Part shown: one piece after another, positions 2,354 through 43,065 of the stretch
Numbering within the stretch: the stretch's first letter is position 1
How the letters are laid out: every line of letters begins with the position of its first letter
Assembly (NCBI RefSeq): GCF_000695795.1
Contig: NZ_JNCA01000016.1
Location: forward strand, 124,001-188,000
From: Flavobacterium seoulense
Lineage (GTDB): Bacteria; Bacteroidota; Bacteroidia; Flavobacteriales; Flavobacteriaceae
Direction: 5' to 3'
DNA: 64,000 nt
The notes under the pieces: generated by a model
Database searches by the model: none
Seen by the model: the letters and a program-made list of their open reading frames with translations, nothing else
What the model was told of the DNA's origin: nothing
Program-made: the position numbers and the translations under genes

Positions 2354-3397
2354 TTATTTTTCCTTAACTTTTAGCGGCTTTTCGGTCATTTCTTCATACT
2401 GAATCCTTGAACGATAGACATCTAAAGCCAAATACACCGCTTCTTTAAACGAATTAAAATCGGCAATTCCTTTCCCAGCAATATCATAAGCCGTCCCATG
2501 ATCCGGCGAAGTCCTGATTCTATCCAATCCAGCAGTAAAATTAACTCCTTTTCCAAAGGACAGAGTCTTAAACGGAACTAATCCCTGATCATGATAAGTC
2601 GCTATTATTGCATCAAATTTCTCATAATGCCCGCTTCCAAAAAAACCATCTGCCGCAAAAGGACCAAAAACCATTGTTCCTTTATCAAACATTTTTTTCA
2701 AAACCGGCTTAATCAACTCTTCATCTTCTTTACCAATAACACCTCCATCACCACAATGTGGATTCAAACCTAAAACAGCAATTTTAGGATTATTGATACT
2801 AAAATCACGAATTAAAGAATGCTTTACAGTATTTATTTTCTTTACAATCAAATCCTCTGTCAATCGAGAAGCCACTTCATTAATAGGCACATGATCCGTC
2901 AATAAACCTACTCTCAAATTATCCTGAACCATAAACATCAAAGCATCTCCGTCTAACTCCTGCTCTAAATAATCAGTATGCCCAGGAAACTTAAACTCTT
3001 CCGATTGAATATTGTATTTATTAATAGGCGCTGTAACCAAAACATCTACCAAACCTTCTTTTAATGCCTTAGTAGCAGCAACAAAAGATTTAATAGCATA
3101 CTCACCTACTTTTTCATCATTAGTTCCCAAATTCAAATCGACACCTTCTTTCCAAACATTGAGAACATTAATTTTCCCAACAACAACCTGGTCCAATTTA
3201 TCTATTCCATGAAGTGCTACCGAAGAATCAAGATTTCTCTTTATAAAAGACAAAATCTTTACATTAGCAAAAATAACCGGCGTACATAGTTCCAACATCC
3301 GAATATCTTCAAATGTTTTTAGAATAACCTCGCTTCCAATACCATTTAAATCTCCAATTGAAATTCCTACGATAATATTTTCTGCTTTTTTAATCAT
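2354..3397 (-). CDS. pdxA: 4-hydroxythreonine-4-phosphate dehydrogenase
   Basis: Catalyses NAD-dependent oxidation and decarboxylation of 4-phosphohydroxy-L-threonine in pyridoxal phosphate synthesis. The 347-residue protein has normal length. Family motifs seen are GDLNGIGSEV near residue 17, the metal-binding GHTDYLE near 140, LNPHCGDGG near 210, ATYHDQGL near 266 and RTSPDHGTAYDIAGKG near 297. The histidines in these motifs bind the divalent metal. It is divergent from ribE, with only 56 bases between them, and the two promoters nearly overlap. It is probably transcribed alone. Confidence 0.95.
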   Translation of the reverse strand: MIKKAENIIVGISIGDLNGIGSEVILKTFEDIRMLELCTPVIFANVKILSFIKRNLDSSVALHGIDKLDQVVVGKINVLNVWKEGVDLNLGTNDEKVGEYAIKSFVAATKALKEGLVDVLVTAPINKYNIQSEEFKFPGHTDYLEQELDGDALMFMVQDNLRVGLLTDHVPINEVASRLTEDLIVKKINTVKHSLIRDFSINNPKIAVLGLNPHCGDGGVIGKEDEELIKPVLKKMFDKGTMVFGPFAADGFFGSGHYEKFDAIIATYHDQGLVPFKTLSFGKGVNFTAGLDRIRTSPDHGTAYDIAGKGIADFNSFKEAVYLALDVYRSRIQYEEMTEKPLKVKEK

Positions 3398-23355: not shown

Positions 23356-24774
23356 TTATTTGATTAATTTCACTTCAGTTCTTCTGTTTAATGCTTTACC
23401 AGCAGCAGTTTTGTTAGTTGCAACCGGCATAGTTTCACCGTATCCAACTGATTTAATTTTGCTTGCAGAAACACCTCTTTCAATCAATGCATTTGAAACT
23501 GCAGCAGCTCTAGCCTCAGAAAGTTTTTGGTTAAATGCATTAGAACCATCGCTATCAGTATGTCCTTCAATTAAGAACTCAGAATTTGCATAGTTTTTAA
23601 GAACACCAGCCATTGCATCTAATCTCTTAGGAACATCAGCATCTTTGAATGTAGATTTACCAGAATTAAAGTAAATAAATCTAGCTTGAGATTTTAATTG
23701 ATCCATAACTTCTGGAGTTACTTCTGGACAACCTTTATTACTAGCCGGACCAGCAACATTAGGACAAGCATCATCTTTATCAGCTACTCCGTCTCCATCA
23801 GTATCTGGCCAAGGACAACCTGCATTTTCTTTAGGACCAGCAACATTAGGGCATTTATCATTTTTATCAGCCACTCCGTCGTTATCAGCATCAGGACAAC
23901 CTTTTAAAGAAGGTAAACCAGCAACATCCGGACAAGCATCATCTTTATCAGCTACTCCATCACCGTCAGTATCAGGACAACCATTAAATGCTGCTAAACC
24001 AGCAACTTCTGGACAAGCGTCTTCAGAATCAACAATTCCATCTCCGTCAGTGTCTGGACATCCGTTGAATTGTTTTAAACCAGCAACTTCCGGACAAGCA
24101 TCATCTTTATCATATATTCCATCACCATCAGTATCTTTTCCTCCAAATTTGAAAACAATACCTGCTGTGTGTTGAAAGTGAGAACGTACTAAAGGATTAT
24201 CATTATCAAATGCTTTCTTGTAAGAAGTTCCAAGTGCTAAACCAACATTTTCAGTAAACCAAAAAGTTAATCCTGCACCAGCATTTACAGTTCCAAAGCT
24301 ACTATCCCCTAAGAAAGTATATCCTCCACCTAAGTGTAAACTTGGATCAACAACTTTAGAATTAATTAGCTCCATGAAACTATATCTCACTTTACCATCA
24401 ATTCCATAATACATTAAGTCTCCTGGATTAGTTACAACATAACCACGAGAATCATGTCCTGGAGCAGTAGGATTGAAAGTAACTAATTTATCAATTTTAT
24501 TAACCGAACCCTGAAGTCCAAAAGAGAAACCACTACCAATGTAACGAGATACACTTAAGTAAGATACAGAAGGAAGAATATTCCAGTTATTTTTTACATC
24601 AAATGGTTGTGAAAAATGACGATCCAACCAGTTGTTACCACCACCTGCGCTTGTTTTTGTATCAACCGCATTTACTCCAAATTCAATTGCCCACGGATTG
24701 TTACTGTCTTGTGCCTGAGAACTTATCCCCATCACCATCATTACAGCAACAAATAGTTTGTTTAGATGTTTCAT
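23356..24774 (-). CDS. OmpA-family outer-membrane protein with thrombospondin type-3 repeats
   Basis: A 472-residue protein with a signal peptide (residues 1-21, ending SSQAQ), an N-terminal beta-barrel region to about residue 210, then five calcium-binding TSP3 repeats of the form DTDGDGxxDxxDxCPxVAG (about 215-350), and a C-terminal OmpA domain. The OmpA domain carries the peptidoglycan-binding signature [22 protein letters not shown] near residue 405. It links the outer membrane to the cell wall and is normally abundant. It has a full promoter and its own strong terminator, so it is a single transcription unit placed between addA and addB. Confidence 0.94.
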
Positions 24775-38576: not shown

Positions 38577-39266
38577 TTAAAAAATCAATCCTTTATTTTT
38601 AGCTGCTTTAACAAGATCAGTATCATCACCTTCAATAACTTCGAGCAATTCCTTAAGATTTGTCTTCCTGGATTCTATTGCATTTAAAGATATAGGTACA
38701 AATTGAGGTATGTCCTGAATTTTCGTTCCTTTTGACAAATGAAATAATATTTGTTTATCGAACAAATCAATTTCGATCGAATTATCATGCGAACCAAGCA
38801 TTTCTAAAATTGATTTACTATAGTAGATCTCATCGTTAATTACTTTATCAAAGGTGTTTAGTAATTCATCAAAAGTTAAATCATTTTTAATAACTAATCC
38901 TCTTGGATTTACCTTGTTAATCAAGGTTTTTAATTTTAAAAACTCCGTAAACATCGTCAACATGATAATTTTGCAATTTGGCATATATTGCAAAATCAAT
39001 TTTGCTAAATCTTCTCCTGAGTGAAGCCCTTTTTCTTCATAAGGAGGCATACTAATATCCAGAAATGCGACATCAAAAACTAAATCATCGGTATTCGTAA
39101 TTAATTCATATGCCGATTCACAATCTTTGGCTTCTGAAATCGAAAAATCATATTCAACCGGATTGTACCTTGTTATAGCATTTTTATATCCCTGAATAAT
39201 AAAAGGATGATCGTCAACAATTAAGATGTTTTTTTTAAGTTTGACTTGGAGGCTTTCAGTTGTCAT
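38577..39266 (-). CDS. Response regulator (receiver plus short C-terminal helix-turn-helix-like domain)
   Basis: A 229-residue regulator, the partner of the TPR sensor kinase whose stop is 19 bases upstream. The receiver is complete: ILIVDDH (Asp18/19), phospho-acceptor Asp70 in FLDISMP, Thr/Ser in LTMFTEF, and Lys in VIKNDLT. The C-terminal 70 residues (FDKQILFHLSKGTKIQDIPQFVPISLNAIESRKTNLKELL) resemble a shortened LuxR/NarL-type DNA-binding domain. This kind of domain follows HisKA_3 kinases in Flavobacteria, though the usual LuxR motif is weak. It is the last gene of the unit before the thiL terminator. Confidence 0.88.
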   Translation of the reverse strand: MTTESLQVKLKKNILIVDDHPFIIQGYKNAITRYNPVEYDFSISEAKDCESAYELITNTDDLVFDVAFLDISMPPYEEKGLHSGEDLAKLILQYMPNCKIIMLTMFTEFLKLKTLINKVNPRGLVIKNDLTFDELLNTFDKVINDEIYYSKSILEMLGSHDNSIEIDLFDKQILFHLSKGTKIQDIPQFVPISLNAIESRKTNLKELLEVIEGDDTDLVKAAKNKGLIF

Positions 39267-39285: not shown

Positions 39286-41319
39286 TTATTCTAACGGAAT
39301 GGTTACCGTAGTTGTTGTTCCTTCACCTTTTTTAGATTTTATAGCAAATTCTCCATTACATTCTTTCGCACGTGAAATCATATTTTGCAAACCAATTCCT
39401 TTTTTCTTAAGATTAACATTGAAACCAACACCATCATCAGCAATTACCAGAACAATGCTATCTTCTTGTTTTTTAAGATCTACTTTAATTGTCGTTGCAT
39501 TAGCATATTTATTAATATTTTGCAAAGACTCCTGAATAATTCTGTATAAATTAATCTTCACTGAATTGACAGCTAAATCCCATTTTATAGACGAATCAAT
39601 ATTAGAAATCAATTTAGATGGAAATGTTTTTCTTTGTTCCTCAAATAAATTGTCGACAATTGCAACGAAGTTATTAATTAATTCTGATTTTTCTCTATTT
39701 AAATCATGTGAAATTTCACGAATATCCTGTTCAATATTTTTTAATTCGGATAAATAATCATTTCGCTGACTAACAGCTAAATCATCATTAAATTGATTCA
39801 AGCCTTCTAAATTCATCCGTACACCAAACATCCTACCCAAAACACCATCATGCAATTCCTGCGCCACACGTTTTTTTTCCTGAACTCTATTAGCTTCAAT
39901 AGTATTTTGTTGAGATATCATCAAATTATAAATATCCTCATTGGCTTTTTGCTGTTGCTGTTTGTATAAAAGCTCTCTGTTTTTAGCTTTTTGCGATTTA
40001 ATGATATAAATAAAAAGTCCTAAAATAGTTAGGCAACTAAAAAAGTAAACCAGATTTCGATTTTTGGTTGCAAGATCAGTATTCTCCCCTTTTATTTGAT
40101 CAGTATCATATTGAATACGTGTAAATTTTTCCCCAATTTTTCGTTCATCTTTCTGTAACTCTTCATTAATACGAATATACTCTTTAGTATAATTGGATGC
40201 ATTTTGAGGATCAACAATACTAATTTGTTTTAAAGCAAGTAAAATCTCCCTCGGTCTGTTGATTTTTTTTGCCAAGAAAAGCGCTTCTTTGGCAAACTGT
40301 AATGATTTCTCTGTATCATCTTTAGAACTATAGTACTCCGAAAGATGAATCTTACTTGAAGGAATTTCAGAACGAAAATTCAAACTATCTCTTATCTTTA
40401 ATGACTTATAGAACAATTCAGGTAACTCATCATCTTCATTCAAATTATATTTTGAATATCCTAAATTGTCTAATAGTAAAGCATAAATTCTTAAATCCTG
40501 ATTATCTATTTTTTGTTGTTCGATACCCTTTAAGAAATAATCTTTTGCTAGTTTGTATTTTTTTAACTTCATATAAACCAAGCCTAGATTTAAATAAGAA
40601 ATCGCCATTGTTTGACTTTTCCCTATTATTTGCATTTCATCTAAACTTTTCAAGGCTTTTTTATGATATAAAATAGCATTTTCATATTCATCCATTCCAT
40701 TATATACTAAGCCTAATAAGTTATAAGCGTCATAAAAAATCTCAACCTCACTTTTTTCATTTTTTATAATGCGAAGTACATTAAAGATTTCTTTTTCACT
40801 GTTTATAAGATCACCCACTCTATATAATAATTCAGCCTTATTAATAAGTGCTTTGGCTAATTGAATTTTATCATTAAGCTTTGCATATACTTTTTCAGCT
40901 TTATAATAATATAAAAAAGCAGAATCTGAAACTGATTTTTGAAGATAATAATCACCTAAATAACTAAACGCTTTTGCCATACTAACAGTATCGGCCGCTC
41001 TTTCAGAATTATTTAAAACTAAATTTACTGTTTGATTGTATTCTTTCCAATAGTTAAGATTATAATATCTATTAGCTACTTTAAATAAATTAACTCTGTT
41101 TAATGAATCATTATCCTGATTTATAACGACCTCATTTGCTTTAAGAATATATTCTAATCTTTTTTGTTTTGAGAGATTAAAGTCATTGGCTGAATCAAAA
41201 TAAATAGACAAACTATCATTTACAACATTGAAATATTTACCATTTGATTTTCTTTGGTTACACCCAAAAAAAATAAATAATACCATTACCAATATTAACT
41301 TTAAACTATTTGTTTTCAA
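39286..41319 (-). CDS. TPR sensor histidine kinase (HisKA_3 type)
   Basis: A 677-residue hybrid of sensor and kinase. Residues 1-20 are a signal with lipobox-like FFGC (Cys20). About 60-400 is a series of TPR helices (ALINKAELLYRVGDLINSEK, SYLNLGLVYMKLKKYKLAKD), expected in the periplasm. A membrane span lies at about 425-443. Then comes the HisKA_3 dimerisation helix with phospho-His in VAQELHDGVLGRMFG, and the HATPase domain with VIADDGVGF and GIGLQNM. It starts with TTG at 41319, supported by the -7 element 21 bases upstream. It pairs with the downstream response regulator. Confidence 0.92.
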   Translation of the reverse strand: MKTNSLKLILVMVLFIFFGCNQRKSNGKYFNVVNDSLSIYFDSANDFNLSKQKRLEYILKANEVVINQDNDSLNRVNLFKVANRYYNLNYWKEYNQTVNLVLNNSERAADTVSMAKAFSYLGDYYLQKSVSDSAFLYYYKAEKVYAKLNDKIQLAKALINKAELLYRVGDLINSEKEIFNVLRIIKNEKSEVEIFYDAYNLLGLVYNGMDEYENAILYHKKALKSLDEMQIIGKSQTMAISYLNLGLVYMKLKKYKLAKDYFLKGIEQQKIDNQDLRIYALLLDNLGYSKYNLNEDDELPELFYKSLKIRDSLNFRSEIPSSKIHLSEYYSSKDDTEKSLQFAKEALFLAKKINRPREILLALKQISIVDPQNASNYTKEYIRINEELQKDERKIGEKFTRIQYDTDQIKGENTDLATKNRNLVYFFSCLTILGLFIYIIKSQKAKNRELLYKQQQQKANEDIYNLMISQQNTIEANRVQEKKRVAQELHDGVLGRMFGVRMNLEGLNQFNDDLAVSQRNDYLSELKNIEQDIREISHDLNREKSELINNFVAIVDNLFEEQRKTFPSKLISNIDSSIKWDLAVNSVKINLYRIIQESLQNINKYANATTIKVDLKKQEDSIVLVIADDGVGFNVNLKKKGIGLQNMISRAKECNGEFAIKSKKGEGTTTTVTIPLE

Positions 41320-41366: not shown

Positions 41367-41397
41367 ATAAAAAAAGGCTATCAAAATTGATAGCCTT
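41367..41397 (-). terminator. Terminator of the repeat-protein gene
   Basis: An 11-bp stem (41374-41384 with 41387-41397) with a T-run on the minus strand, 23 bases after the repeat-protein stop. It separates that gene from the kinase operon. Confidence 0.7.
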
Positions 41398-41419
41398 AAT
41401 ATATTTAGTTATTTTCTAA

Positions 41420-41695
41420 TTAATCTGTTTTGATTGTTCTAGTTCCTCCATCATTTGAAGTAAAATCGGTTTTAATCGTTCTGGTTCCTCCGTCGTTAGA
41501 AGTATAATCAGTTTTGATTGTTCTAGTTCCTCCATCATTTGAAGTGTAATCAGTTTTGATTGTTCTGGTACCTCCGTCGTTTGAAGTATAATCAGTTTTA
41601 ATTGTTCTAGTACCTCCATCATTAGCAGAAGTTGTGAATGATGTTAAAATCATTACTAAAGAAAATAGTCCGATTGTTACAATAGATTTTTTCAT
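41420..41695 (-). CDS. Small exported protein made of 14-residue tandem repeats
   Basis: I know no family for this 91-residue protein. Residues 1-24 are a signal peptide (MKKS, hydrophobic core, TTSA). The remaining 67 residues are four full copies and one 11-residue partial copy of NDGGTRTIKTDYTS (25-38, 39-52, 53-66, 67-80, 81-91). The only residue change is Tyr to Phe in copy 4. The DNA copies differ at many third positions, all synonymous, which shows that the protein is selected. The mature product would be a small, Thr-rich, charged repeat peptide outside the inner membrane. Upstream is a LytTR regulator and downstream a TPR kinase, all on the same strand. A strong terminator follows. 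Confidence 0.85.
   Translation of the reverse strand: MKKSIVTIGLFSLVMILTSFTTSANDGGTRTIKTDYTSNDGGTRTIKTDYTSNDGGTRTIKTDYTSNDGGTRTIKTDFTSNDGGTRTIKTD
41423..41623 (-). repeat. 42-bp tandem repeats (4.8 copies) with alternating codon choice
   Basis: Copies span 41582-41623, 41540-41581, 41498-41539, 41456-41497 and 41423-41455. Copies 1, 3 and 5 use AAT GAT .. ACT AGA, while copies 2 and 4 use AAC GAC .. ACC AGA, so the higher-order unit is 84 bp. Confidence 0.9.
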
Positions 41696-41765: not shown

Positions 41766-41813
41766 TAAAATTACATAGCTAACCCTTGTTATATAGGTGT
41801 TTTCAGGTGTTTA
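41766..41813 (-). promoter_or_regulatory. Candidate activator site and -7 element for the repeat-protein gene
   Basis: AGGTGTTT occurs twice at exact 10-base period (41795-41802 and 41805-41812). A near-consensus -7 element TAATTTTA (minus strand, 41766-41773) lies one turn and a half away. The direct repeat occupies the -33 region, as expected for an activator-dependent promoter. It is unproven. Confidence 0.35.
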
Positions 41814-41872
41814 TGGTAGAATGTACCCAATTATGAGTGAATGAATATCAAATCATGGTAGATGGTTATTTT

Positions 41873-42709
41873 TTAAATTTCAAGATAATTCCCATTAGAA
41901 ATTTCAGAAATTATTAAATCTATATTAGACTTATATGATTTAGAGAAAGGTAATTTTATAGATGTATTTTTAATGTAACACAATGCATTTCCTGTATGTA
42001 TTCTGGAAATACAATTACTATTAACAATATAACTGTTATGAATACGAACAAAAGGGTAAGGCAAAACTCCTTCAAAAAGCTTAAGTGTTTTAAAAGCAGT
42101 AACCATTTCACCATTGATTAAATGAATATCTGTAGAATTATTATCTGCTTGAAAATAGGCAATATCTCTAGTATCTATATACCTGTAATCACCATATGAC
42201 TTAACACATAATATAAGAGGATCTCGTTGAATTCCGAGTGTTTCAGACTTAACAACTCCTGTAACAATAATTTCTTCAGGTTCAAAATCAGTTTCTTTAG
42301 GATTAACCGTTACTGGTTCTGATTGATCCACTTTATTAGATTTACTAATTTTCAACAATGACTTCACCATATCAAATCGGGTTACCGGTTTGATAAAATA
42401 ATCTGATACCTCATATTGTATCGCTTCAAATGCTAATTCTTTTTTAGAGGTTGTTACAATAATCTTAGGAACAACATTTAAATACCTATACAATTCACTA
42501 ATAAGTGCTAATGACAAATTGCTTTTTTTGTCAGCAGGTTCAATTTCAAGAAAAATTAATTTGGGTTTGTGTTCGAGAATTAAATTGAGCCCTTCATTAT
42601 AATTACTGGCAATACCCAAAAATATAAGTTCTGAAAAACCATCGGTGATCGTTTTCGTCTTTTCAGCACTTTCTTTATTATCATCAATTATGATGTATGA
42701 GTAATTCAT
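41873..42709 (-). CDS. LytTR response regulator with atypical receiver (Glu at the phospho-site)
   Basis: A 278-residue regulator. The receiver (1-120) keeps the acidic pair Asp9-Asp10, the Thr of VTTSKKE and the Lys of YFIKPVTR. However, the phospho-acceptor position reads LIFLEIEPADK, with Glu55 where Asp is expected. The C-terminal LytTR DNA-binding domain (about 175-275) includes FQADNNSTDIHLINGEMVTAFKTL and PYPFVRIHNSYIVN. The frame extends to 42736, but the ATG at 42709 precedes the receiver strand MNYSYIIIDDN. The next gene on the same strand is the tandem-repeat exported protein. No kinase gene adjoins it upstream. Confidence 0.9.
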   Translation of the reverse strand: MNYSYIIIDDNKESAEKTKTITDGFSELIFLGIASNYNEGLNLILEHKPKLIFLEIEPADKKSNLSLALISELYRYLNVVPKIIVTTSKKELAFEAIQYEVSDYFIKPVTRFDMVKSLLKISKSNKVDQSEPVTVNPKETDFEPEEIIVTGVVKSETLGIQRDPLILCVKSYGDYRYIDTRDIAYFQADNNSTDIHLINGEMVTAFKTLKLFEGVLPYPFVRIHNSYIVNSNCISRIHTGNALCYIKNTSIKLPFSKSYKSNIDLIISEISNGNYLEI

Positions 42710-43065
42710 AGATGGCAATTCCCTACGATTAGGCATAAATAATTATAACAATTGAAACATAAATGCTTCAACCATCTATTAGAAAATCAATGTGGTAGTT
42801 TTGGGAAAACTATACTGAATATTTAGTTAAAAAAACTAACATTCTAGAAGTTAAAAATAAACATTAAACCTTTTTAACCGATTAATTGTCGTTAGAAATC
42901 GATTAAATGCGAATAGTGATTGATAAAGGGTAAAAAAAACCGACCAAGAGTAAAATCGCCTTTTTTCATTGCTTAAAATTTTACAATCATTTCTTACACA
43001 AGACTATCTAAAACAAAAAAAAGCTCTCCGTTTTGGAGAGCTTCTTACTATAGTATGAAAAAAAA
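42710..43065. other. Intergenic region between the LytTR gene and glyS
   Basis: 356 bases, AT-rich. It holds the glyS terminator (43012-43043) at its right end. I see no TAnnTTTG promoter for the LytTR gene, no RNA gene and no credible small frame. Confidence 0.6.
43012..43043 (-). terminator. Terminator of glyS
   Basis: A 9-bp GC-containing stem (43021-43029 with 43035-43043), 5-base loop, and an A-run to the left giving a T-run on the minus strand. Confidence 0.8.

Follow-up and report, generated by a model that had tools for sequence, protein, structure and literature searches.

The best reading of a small gene in Flavobacterium seoulense is that it encodes a precursor carrying several copies of a signalling peptide, probably a pheromone that passes from cell to cell and is sensed outside the cytoplasm by the histidine kinase encoded next to it; we regard this reading as likely. 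The gene lies in the window (the whole 64,000-nucleotide stretch of DNA analysed, from a genome of 3.79 Mb), in which an ORF with an ATG start encodes an exported-type protein of 91 aa. The parts of the precursor are as follows:

41420–41695, minus strand: precursor gene, a signal peptide plus 4.8 copies of the 14-residue unit NDGGTRTIKTDYTS (ORF, TRF and relatives)
41624–41695, minus strand: signal peptide, residues 1–24, with the cleavage point assumed from where the repeats begin (genus-wide leader conservation)
41423–41623, minus strand: repeat array, five cores (NDGGTRTIKTD) with four spacers ([YF]TS) between them (copy comparison)

The N-terminal signal peptide was recognised by eye, and the 67-residue region C-terminal to it is repetitive over its entire length. 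TRF identified 4.8 copies with a period of 42 nt (41421–41623), and the region matched itself at 52 of 53 positions when shifted by 14 residues, compared with a maximum of 20 in 20000 shuffles. The ORF and both repeat analyses confirm the preliminary description of an exported 91-residue protein made of 4.8 tandem 14-residue copies. Its count of one residue change among the copies was also correct but can be refined: the change (Y to F) sits within the spacer (YTS/FTS). The final copy lacks the spacer, and several spacer-bearing relatives likewise end before it; for these reasons, the unit is better read as the core NDGGTRTIKTD followed by the spacer YTS. The cores are hydrophilic and charged and contain no Cys, and GG pairs are located inside the repeat units. 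A second minus-strand ORF (41416–41622) was set aside as, in our reading, a by-product of the repeat in another frame. No match was found in a Pfam search, and two weak NCBIfam matches (E = 0.01 and 0.034) were dismissed as lying far below the cut-off, in line with the earlier statement that no known family covers this protein. Elsewhere in the window, an 81-bp tandem repeat (23749–24135) encodes thrombospondin type 3-like repeats of an outer-membrane-type protein, which we read as ordinary.

The precursor belongs to a family in Flavobacterium that has no name, and whose leader is conserved while the repeat unit is specific to the species. Relatives were found in 65 of 199 Flavobacterium genomes by a single-sequence search and in 116 by a profile search, at least two of the latter appearing spurious (G076 and G098, weak matches to long ORFs); the remaining 83 genomes had no profile match. 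Among 397 Flavobacteriaceae genomes, the profile gave six matches, three within the genus and three outside it (L105–L107), and the latter were set aside because their fetched flanks contain no TPR kinase and the ORFs resemble ordinary exported proteins. After removal of duplicate fetches (L033 = L097 and L036 = L041), 66 distinct loci were obtained, and in 58 of these a TPR-sensor histidine kinase gene follows immediately downstream of the precursor, mostly after a gap of ~90–130 nt. The rules applied were a leader pattern, a kinase ORF of at least 600 aa and a gap of <600 nt; the eight loci that failed them (L045, L073, L077, L085, L086, L089, L094 and L095) include some at contig ends. The mean pairwise identity of the precursors is 0.71 over residues 1–20 (the leader) vs 0.20 over the last 14 residues, and 53 different 15-residue C-terminal ends occur among the 58 linked loci. 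Examples of the repeat units of relatives are IGGNHTPIGGYTSE, IGGNGGNETRKAIE, EIGGRKDVDTGNF, DIIGQGATGGNMKV and AAGSGSTGGNVRLD. The copies within one array are near-identical, and many of the changes between copies are located in spacers.

Comparison of neighbouring copies in the window precursor revealed 24 synonymous changes vs 1 amino-acid change. A clear array was present in 40 of 58 loci, and adjacent copies in these gave a pS of 0.281 (352/1250.7 sites) and a pN of 0.037 (154/4113.3 sites), a ratio of 0.13. The 18 loci in which the script found no clear array were left out; these have either one or two copies, repeats that have diverged (a few loci) or nothing clearly repetitive. The selection on the protein sequence proposed from the single gene is thus borne out. 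A neutral, functionless tandem duplication would fit the variable copy number among close relatives (L071 has 6 copies and L074 has 3) and the units changing together within each species, but the excess of synonymous changes argues against it, as does the retention of the same position in 58 of 66 loci, and its probability appears negligible.

The same comparisons bear on a structural repeat protein (a fibre, amyloid subunit, adhesin or ice-binding solenoid), which exact Thr-rich tandem repeats might suggest and which the preliminary description had offered in its fibre/amyloid and beta-solenoid/ice-binding options. These options found no support: between species the unit is almost wholly different and varies freely in both number and sequence, some precursors having only one or two copies, and the gene is linked to a sensor kinase. 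AF2 modelled the entire repeat with low confidence (mean pLDDT 48), largely as coil with little strand; such a model excludes no fold. The Pfam search gave no match. We consider a structural role very improbable.

The link to the adjoining two-component genes, which the preliminary description missed, carries the explanation. The neighbouring features in the window are as follows:

38577–39266, minus strand: NarL-type response regulator, the proposed kinase partner, with the phospho-acceptor Asp70 conserved (domain match; Asp in 56 of 56)
39286–41319, minus strand: TPR-sensor histidine kinase of 677 aa with a TTG start, the proposed receptor (domain matches and hydropathy)
40060–41253, minus strand: sensor (TPR) region of the kinase, residues 23–420 (AF2 model; co-divergence with the peptide)
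41374–41397, minus strand: terminator-like hairpin between precursor and kinase, with a T-run at 41369–41373 (coordinates read from the sequence)
41873–42736, minus strand: LytTR regulator in which Glu64 replaces the phospho-acceptor Asp (domain match; Glu in 52 of 54 loci)

Among the 58 linked loci, the LytTR regulator is present in 54, the NarL-type regulator in 56 and GlyS in 48, and the genes usually run GlyS, LytTR, precursor, kinase and NarL, all in the same direction. In 44 of 58 loci, a script rule identified a hairpin with a T-rich tail in the gap from precursor to kinase, and this hairpin may lower read-through. Some loci contain at least two TPR-kinase genes around a single precursor (L044–L047, L053, L060, L068, L081, L086, L092 and L093). 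Mutations in a LytTR gene and in a kinase gene with an adjacent number are mentioned in a report on evolved F. johnsoniae lines (PMC10197871), and these genes may or may not represent the present cassette.

Bacteriocin loci typically pair diversifying small secreted peptides with two-component genes, so that a bacteriocin-like or otherwise toxic peptide whose production is controlled by the neighbouring regulators would show a similar arrangement. However, the recurring neighbours of the precursor are regulators and housekeeping genes such as GlyS, and no immunity, ABC-export or modification gene recurs among the named neighbours. RiPP precursors have a modification enzyme encoded alongside, and none was seen among these named recurring neighbours. 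The hydrophilic, charged and Cys-free cores and the covariation with the kinase sensor described below also argue against a toxic peptide, which we regard as quite improbable.

The kinase consists of an export signal with a Cys near the N-terminus, a TPR region (residues ~23–420), a transmembrane segment (~421–442), HisKA_3 and HATPase_c. By hydropathy, only two hydrophobic segments are present, with the TPR sensor between them; because the N-terminus is hydrophobic and a single transmembrane segment follows, the TPR domain is predicted to lie outside the cytoplasm. A Cys follows the hydrophobic run in all 58 kinases, and the kinase His is intact in all 58. The mean identity by region is 0.37 for the leader, 0.39 to 0.52 for the sensor, 0.59 for the ATPase domain and 0.72 for the DHp domain; the sensor is the least conserved part apart from the leader. 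AF2 predicted a confident superhelix for residues 23–428 (pLDDT 88.8). The closest solved fold is that of LGN, a binder of partner peptides (5a6c, Z = 28.7, rmsd 3.5, 320 aligned residues), and the model is also similar to the pheromone receptors Rap (8rst, Z = 25.8, rmsd 6.2, 340 aligned) and NprR (5dbk, Z = 25.3, rmsd 5.9, 342 aligned). Because TPR folds are common, this likeness supports a binding groove and no more.

The peptide and the sensor diverge together. In partial-correlation tests on 48 loci (10 of the 58 were omitted for want of a usable GlyS), the peptide distance correlated with the sensor distance when the kinase domain was controlled (partial r = 0.388, p = 0.0005; reverse test 0.057, p = 0.20), and the same test with GlyS controlled gave 0.418 (p = 0.0005) vs 0.073 (p = 0.12). 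With GlyS controlled, the peptide distance also correlates with that of the kinase domain (0.240, p = 0.0005), and shared ancestry is controlled only in part in these peptide–sensor correlations. When the two halves of the sensor were compared with the peptide in the 48 loci, the values were 0.342 (p = 0.0005) for the C-terminal half and 0.081 (p = 0.13) for the N-terminal half. The association is also visible in the 78 pairs of loci with kinase identities of at least 85%: the mean sensor identity was 87% (74 to 99%) in 17 pairs with the same core, 67% in 28 pairs with intermediate cores and 62% (34 to 77%) in 33 pairs with different cores. Extreme pairs are L081/L093, with 85% identity in the kinase and 34% in the sensor, and L050/L067, with 99% in GlyS, 91% in the kinase and 49% in the sensor.

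In TPR domains, helices A line the groove. With helices A and B assigned by hand, 18 of 111 positions in helices A covaried with the peptide vs 5 of 107 in helices B (p = 4.6e-5), and helices A are no more variable than helices B (column entropy 1.53 vs 1.71). The helix A distance correlated with the peptide when B was controlled (0.349, p = 0.001), compared with 0.0 (p = 0.48) for helix B when A was controlled; when the kinase was controlled, both helix sets kept a correlation (A 0.422; B 0.264, p = 0.001 for B). The covariation is concentrated on the groove side of the sensor.

The region upstream of the precursor contains the following repeats:

41809–41821, minus strand: operator-like direct repeat TTCTACCATAAAC (upstream-region motif counts)
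41829–41841, minus strand: operator-like direct repeat TTCACTCATAATT, 20 bp from TTCTACCATAAAC (upstream-region motif counts)
41851–41863, minus strand: third, weaker direct repeat ATCTACCATGATT (aligned by eye)

CATTCAC occurs in 48 of 58 regions upstream of the precursor vs 1.4 in shuffles, a contrast that is overstated because the loci are related, and the best spacing of the direct repeats is mostly 20–21 bp. A pair pattern drawn from the window's own site had a single match in the genome, at the precursor promoter with 0 mismatches, and a backward control also gave 1 match (≤3 mismatches); since the spacing was fixed at one value and no more than 3 mismatches were allowed, other targets could be missed. 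An earlier, misaligned pattern was discarded (3 forward vs 2 backward-control matches, 0 at the precursor promoter). The LytTR regulator encoded upstream would act on these repeats in the precursor's own promoter. Given the Glu at its phospho-acceptor position, it would probably do so independently of phosphorylation; in 26 homologues outside the genus, the residue at this position is Asn in 16, Asp in 4, Glu in 3, His in 1 and Cys in 1, with one unread.

Taken as a peptide-pheromone (quorum-sensing-like) cassette, the precursor, kinase, NarL-type regulator and LytTR regulator would work as follows. The multi-copy precursor would be exported through Sec and cut at the [YF]TS spacers, releasing cores of approximately NDGGTRTIKTD; of the options in the preliminary description, it is the processed peptide that holds up, with cleavage itself a prediction. 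The core would be a species-specific ligand that, having left the cell, binds in the groove of the TPR sensor, predicted to be extracytoplasmic, of the downstream kinase, which would then relay the signal by phosphotransfer to its putative partner, the NarL-type regulator. An AgrB/PCAT-type exporter is absent from the named neighbours of the precursor within the loci, and neither a processing protease nor an outer-membrane exit route was identified.

Kinases with related sensors extend well beyond the genus. Sensor matches were found in 263 of 397 Flavobacteriaceae genomes, representing 172 of 237 genera. In a sample of 47 extra-genus kinases (27 best loci and 20 picked by hand further down the ranking), a small ORF with a signal lies immediately upstream of 45; of the two exceptions, L145 has a candidate that fails the tail rule and L142 has none. 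Such an ORF preceded 0 of 35 further large ORFs from those flanks, a control from which kinases had been removed (10 of 45 with cut kinase ORFs still included), and 5 of 257 in Flavobacterium loci, a later control in which the initially omitted GlyS ORFs were restored. Most of these small ORFs begin with a leader of the lipoprotein type and contain one copy only, and TGD, TGG or GG is often found in the tail; nine of them, searched together with one repeat precursor, had no Pfam match and no NCBIfam match above the cut-off. A LytTR homologue occurs in the fetched flank of 26 of the 47 kinases, and many of the others have, in our reading, a LacI-like gene. Outside Flavobacteriaceae, none of 21 TPR loci had a small signal-bearing ORF. 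On balance, it is somewhat more likely than not that a peptide language exists throughout Flavobacteriaceae: small exported precursors, with one copy in the other genera seen and several in many Flavobacterium, would be read by TPR histidine kinases that co-evolve with them and have their sensors outside the cytoplasm.

Several further arrangements were observed. In a second clade of TPR kinases (L145–L149, L151, L152, L154, L155, L159 and L160), a LacI-like gene replaces LytTR, and the small lipoprotein-type ORF upstream has a CTKQDLNEDD-like start and a TGG-type tail. Two Flavobacterium genomes (L163 and L165) carry a lipoprotein-type small ORF in place of the repeat precursor. A small upstream ORF is present for 54 of the 77 TPR-kinase ORFs in the Flavobacterium loci, many loci having extra kinases that lack one. 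By eye, no repeat precursor was seen upstream of three further kinase matches in the genome of the window (L099–L101). At L100 (G000 contig C21, ~132,300), a 105-aa ORF (2859–3176 of the locus, plus strand) has a signal-peptide-like start and three imperfect repeats of L[KQT]GPA[YF]KNxxPW and adjoins another HisKA_3 kinase and a NarL-type regulator of this genome.

The main alternative to a pheromone shares everything with it except exit from the cell: the peptide could be a private ligand of the TPR kinase in the same cell, one that stays in the periplasm or anchored in a membrane and reports on the envelope through its release or breakdown. The host is Gram-negative and the sensor would, by hydropathy, face the periplasm; most precursors of other genera have a lipoprotein-type leader and could remain anchored; and the search for an exit route gave none. 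Species-specific cores that co-diverge with the sensor are nevertheless more easily explained by selection on a signal that must be specific between cells, and the presence of several copies in one precursor suggests dose, although neither point is decisive. We consider a same-cell ligand unlikely but worth keeping in view, and the cell-to-cell pheromone the better reading.

Quorum sensing by peptides is generally seen as a chiefly Gram-positive trait. The present cassette is best read as functioning like such systems, in that the peptide gene lies beside a candidate receptor with which it diverges, yet it belongs to none of the RRNPPA, agr and Com groups. With the RRNPPA family (Rap, NprR and PlcR), it shares a TPR superhelix as the candidate peptide-binding domain, as judged from the AF2 model, structure matches and Pfam TPR matches. 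In Rap–Phr systems, a small exported propeptide is encoded beside the TPR receptor, and some propeptides are described with several pheromone copies, up to 8, separated by short spacers (PMC11343458); these duplicated Phr propeptides form a close parallel to the present precursor. However, Rap–Phr systems occur in Bacillota and use a cytoplasmic receptor and an imported peptide, whereas the present host is Gram-negative and its TPR domain, predicted to be extracytoplasmic, is part of a membrane histidine kinase. RRNPPA proteins act through an HTH domain or by binding a regulator and have no kinase domain, in contrast to the HisKA_3 and HATPase_c domains found here. In the agr and ComCDE systems, as they are generally known, the peptide gene likewise adjoins genes for a histidine kinase and a response regulator, LytTR-type regulators occur, and a conserved kinase is combined with a sensor and a peptide that diverge together. 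Their sensors are multi-pass membrane domains and their peptides leave through AgrB or a double-glycine ABC transporter, whereas here a TPR sensor lies between two hydrophobic segments of a HisKA_3 kinase, the leader is of the Sec type and the GG pairs are inside the units.

The yeast α-factor, which is processed by Kex2, offers a parallel in organisation. Its precursor MFα1 is a polyprotein of identical pheromone repeats and spacers whose repeat number varies between relatives, and concerted evolution is among the keywords of the paper describing it (PMC5850478). MFα1 is eukaryotic, its receptor is a GPCR, and it has no homology to the present precursor. Other close counterparts are the unnamed small exported ORFs of other Flavobacteriaceae, which occupy the same place relative to homologous kinases but differ in being single-copy and in mostly having a lipoprotein-type leader. 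No paper on the precursor family was found in the open-access PubMed Central literature, although other journals may hold some, and no word starting with 'Bacteroid' or 'Flavobacter' occurs in the main text of a review on quorum sensing in bacteria from 2026 (PMC13220807).

A candidate signal can be read from each genome, in several near-identical copies and beside its likely receptor, so that specificity, receptor switching and species-specific communication become testable with synthetic peptides of ~11 residues. The precursors would supply a candidate ligand for a large class of TPR-sensor kinases (263 of 397 genomes and 172 of 237 genera). If the proposed reading is true, these Gram-negative bacteria would possess an equivalent of the peptide quorum sensing known from Gram-positive ones, with a receptor type of its own and near species-specific signals.
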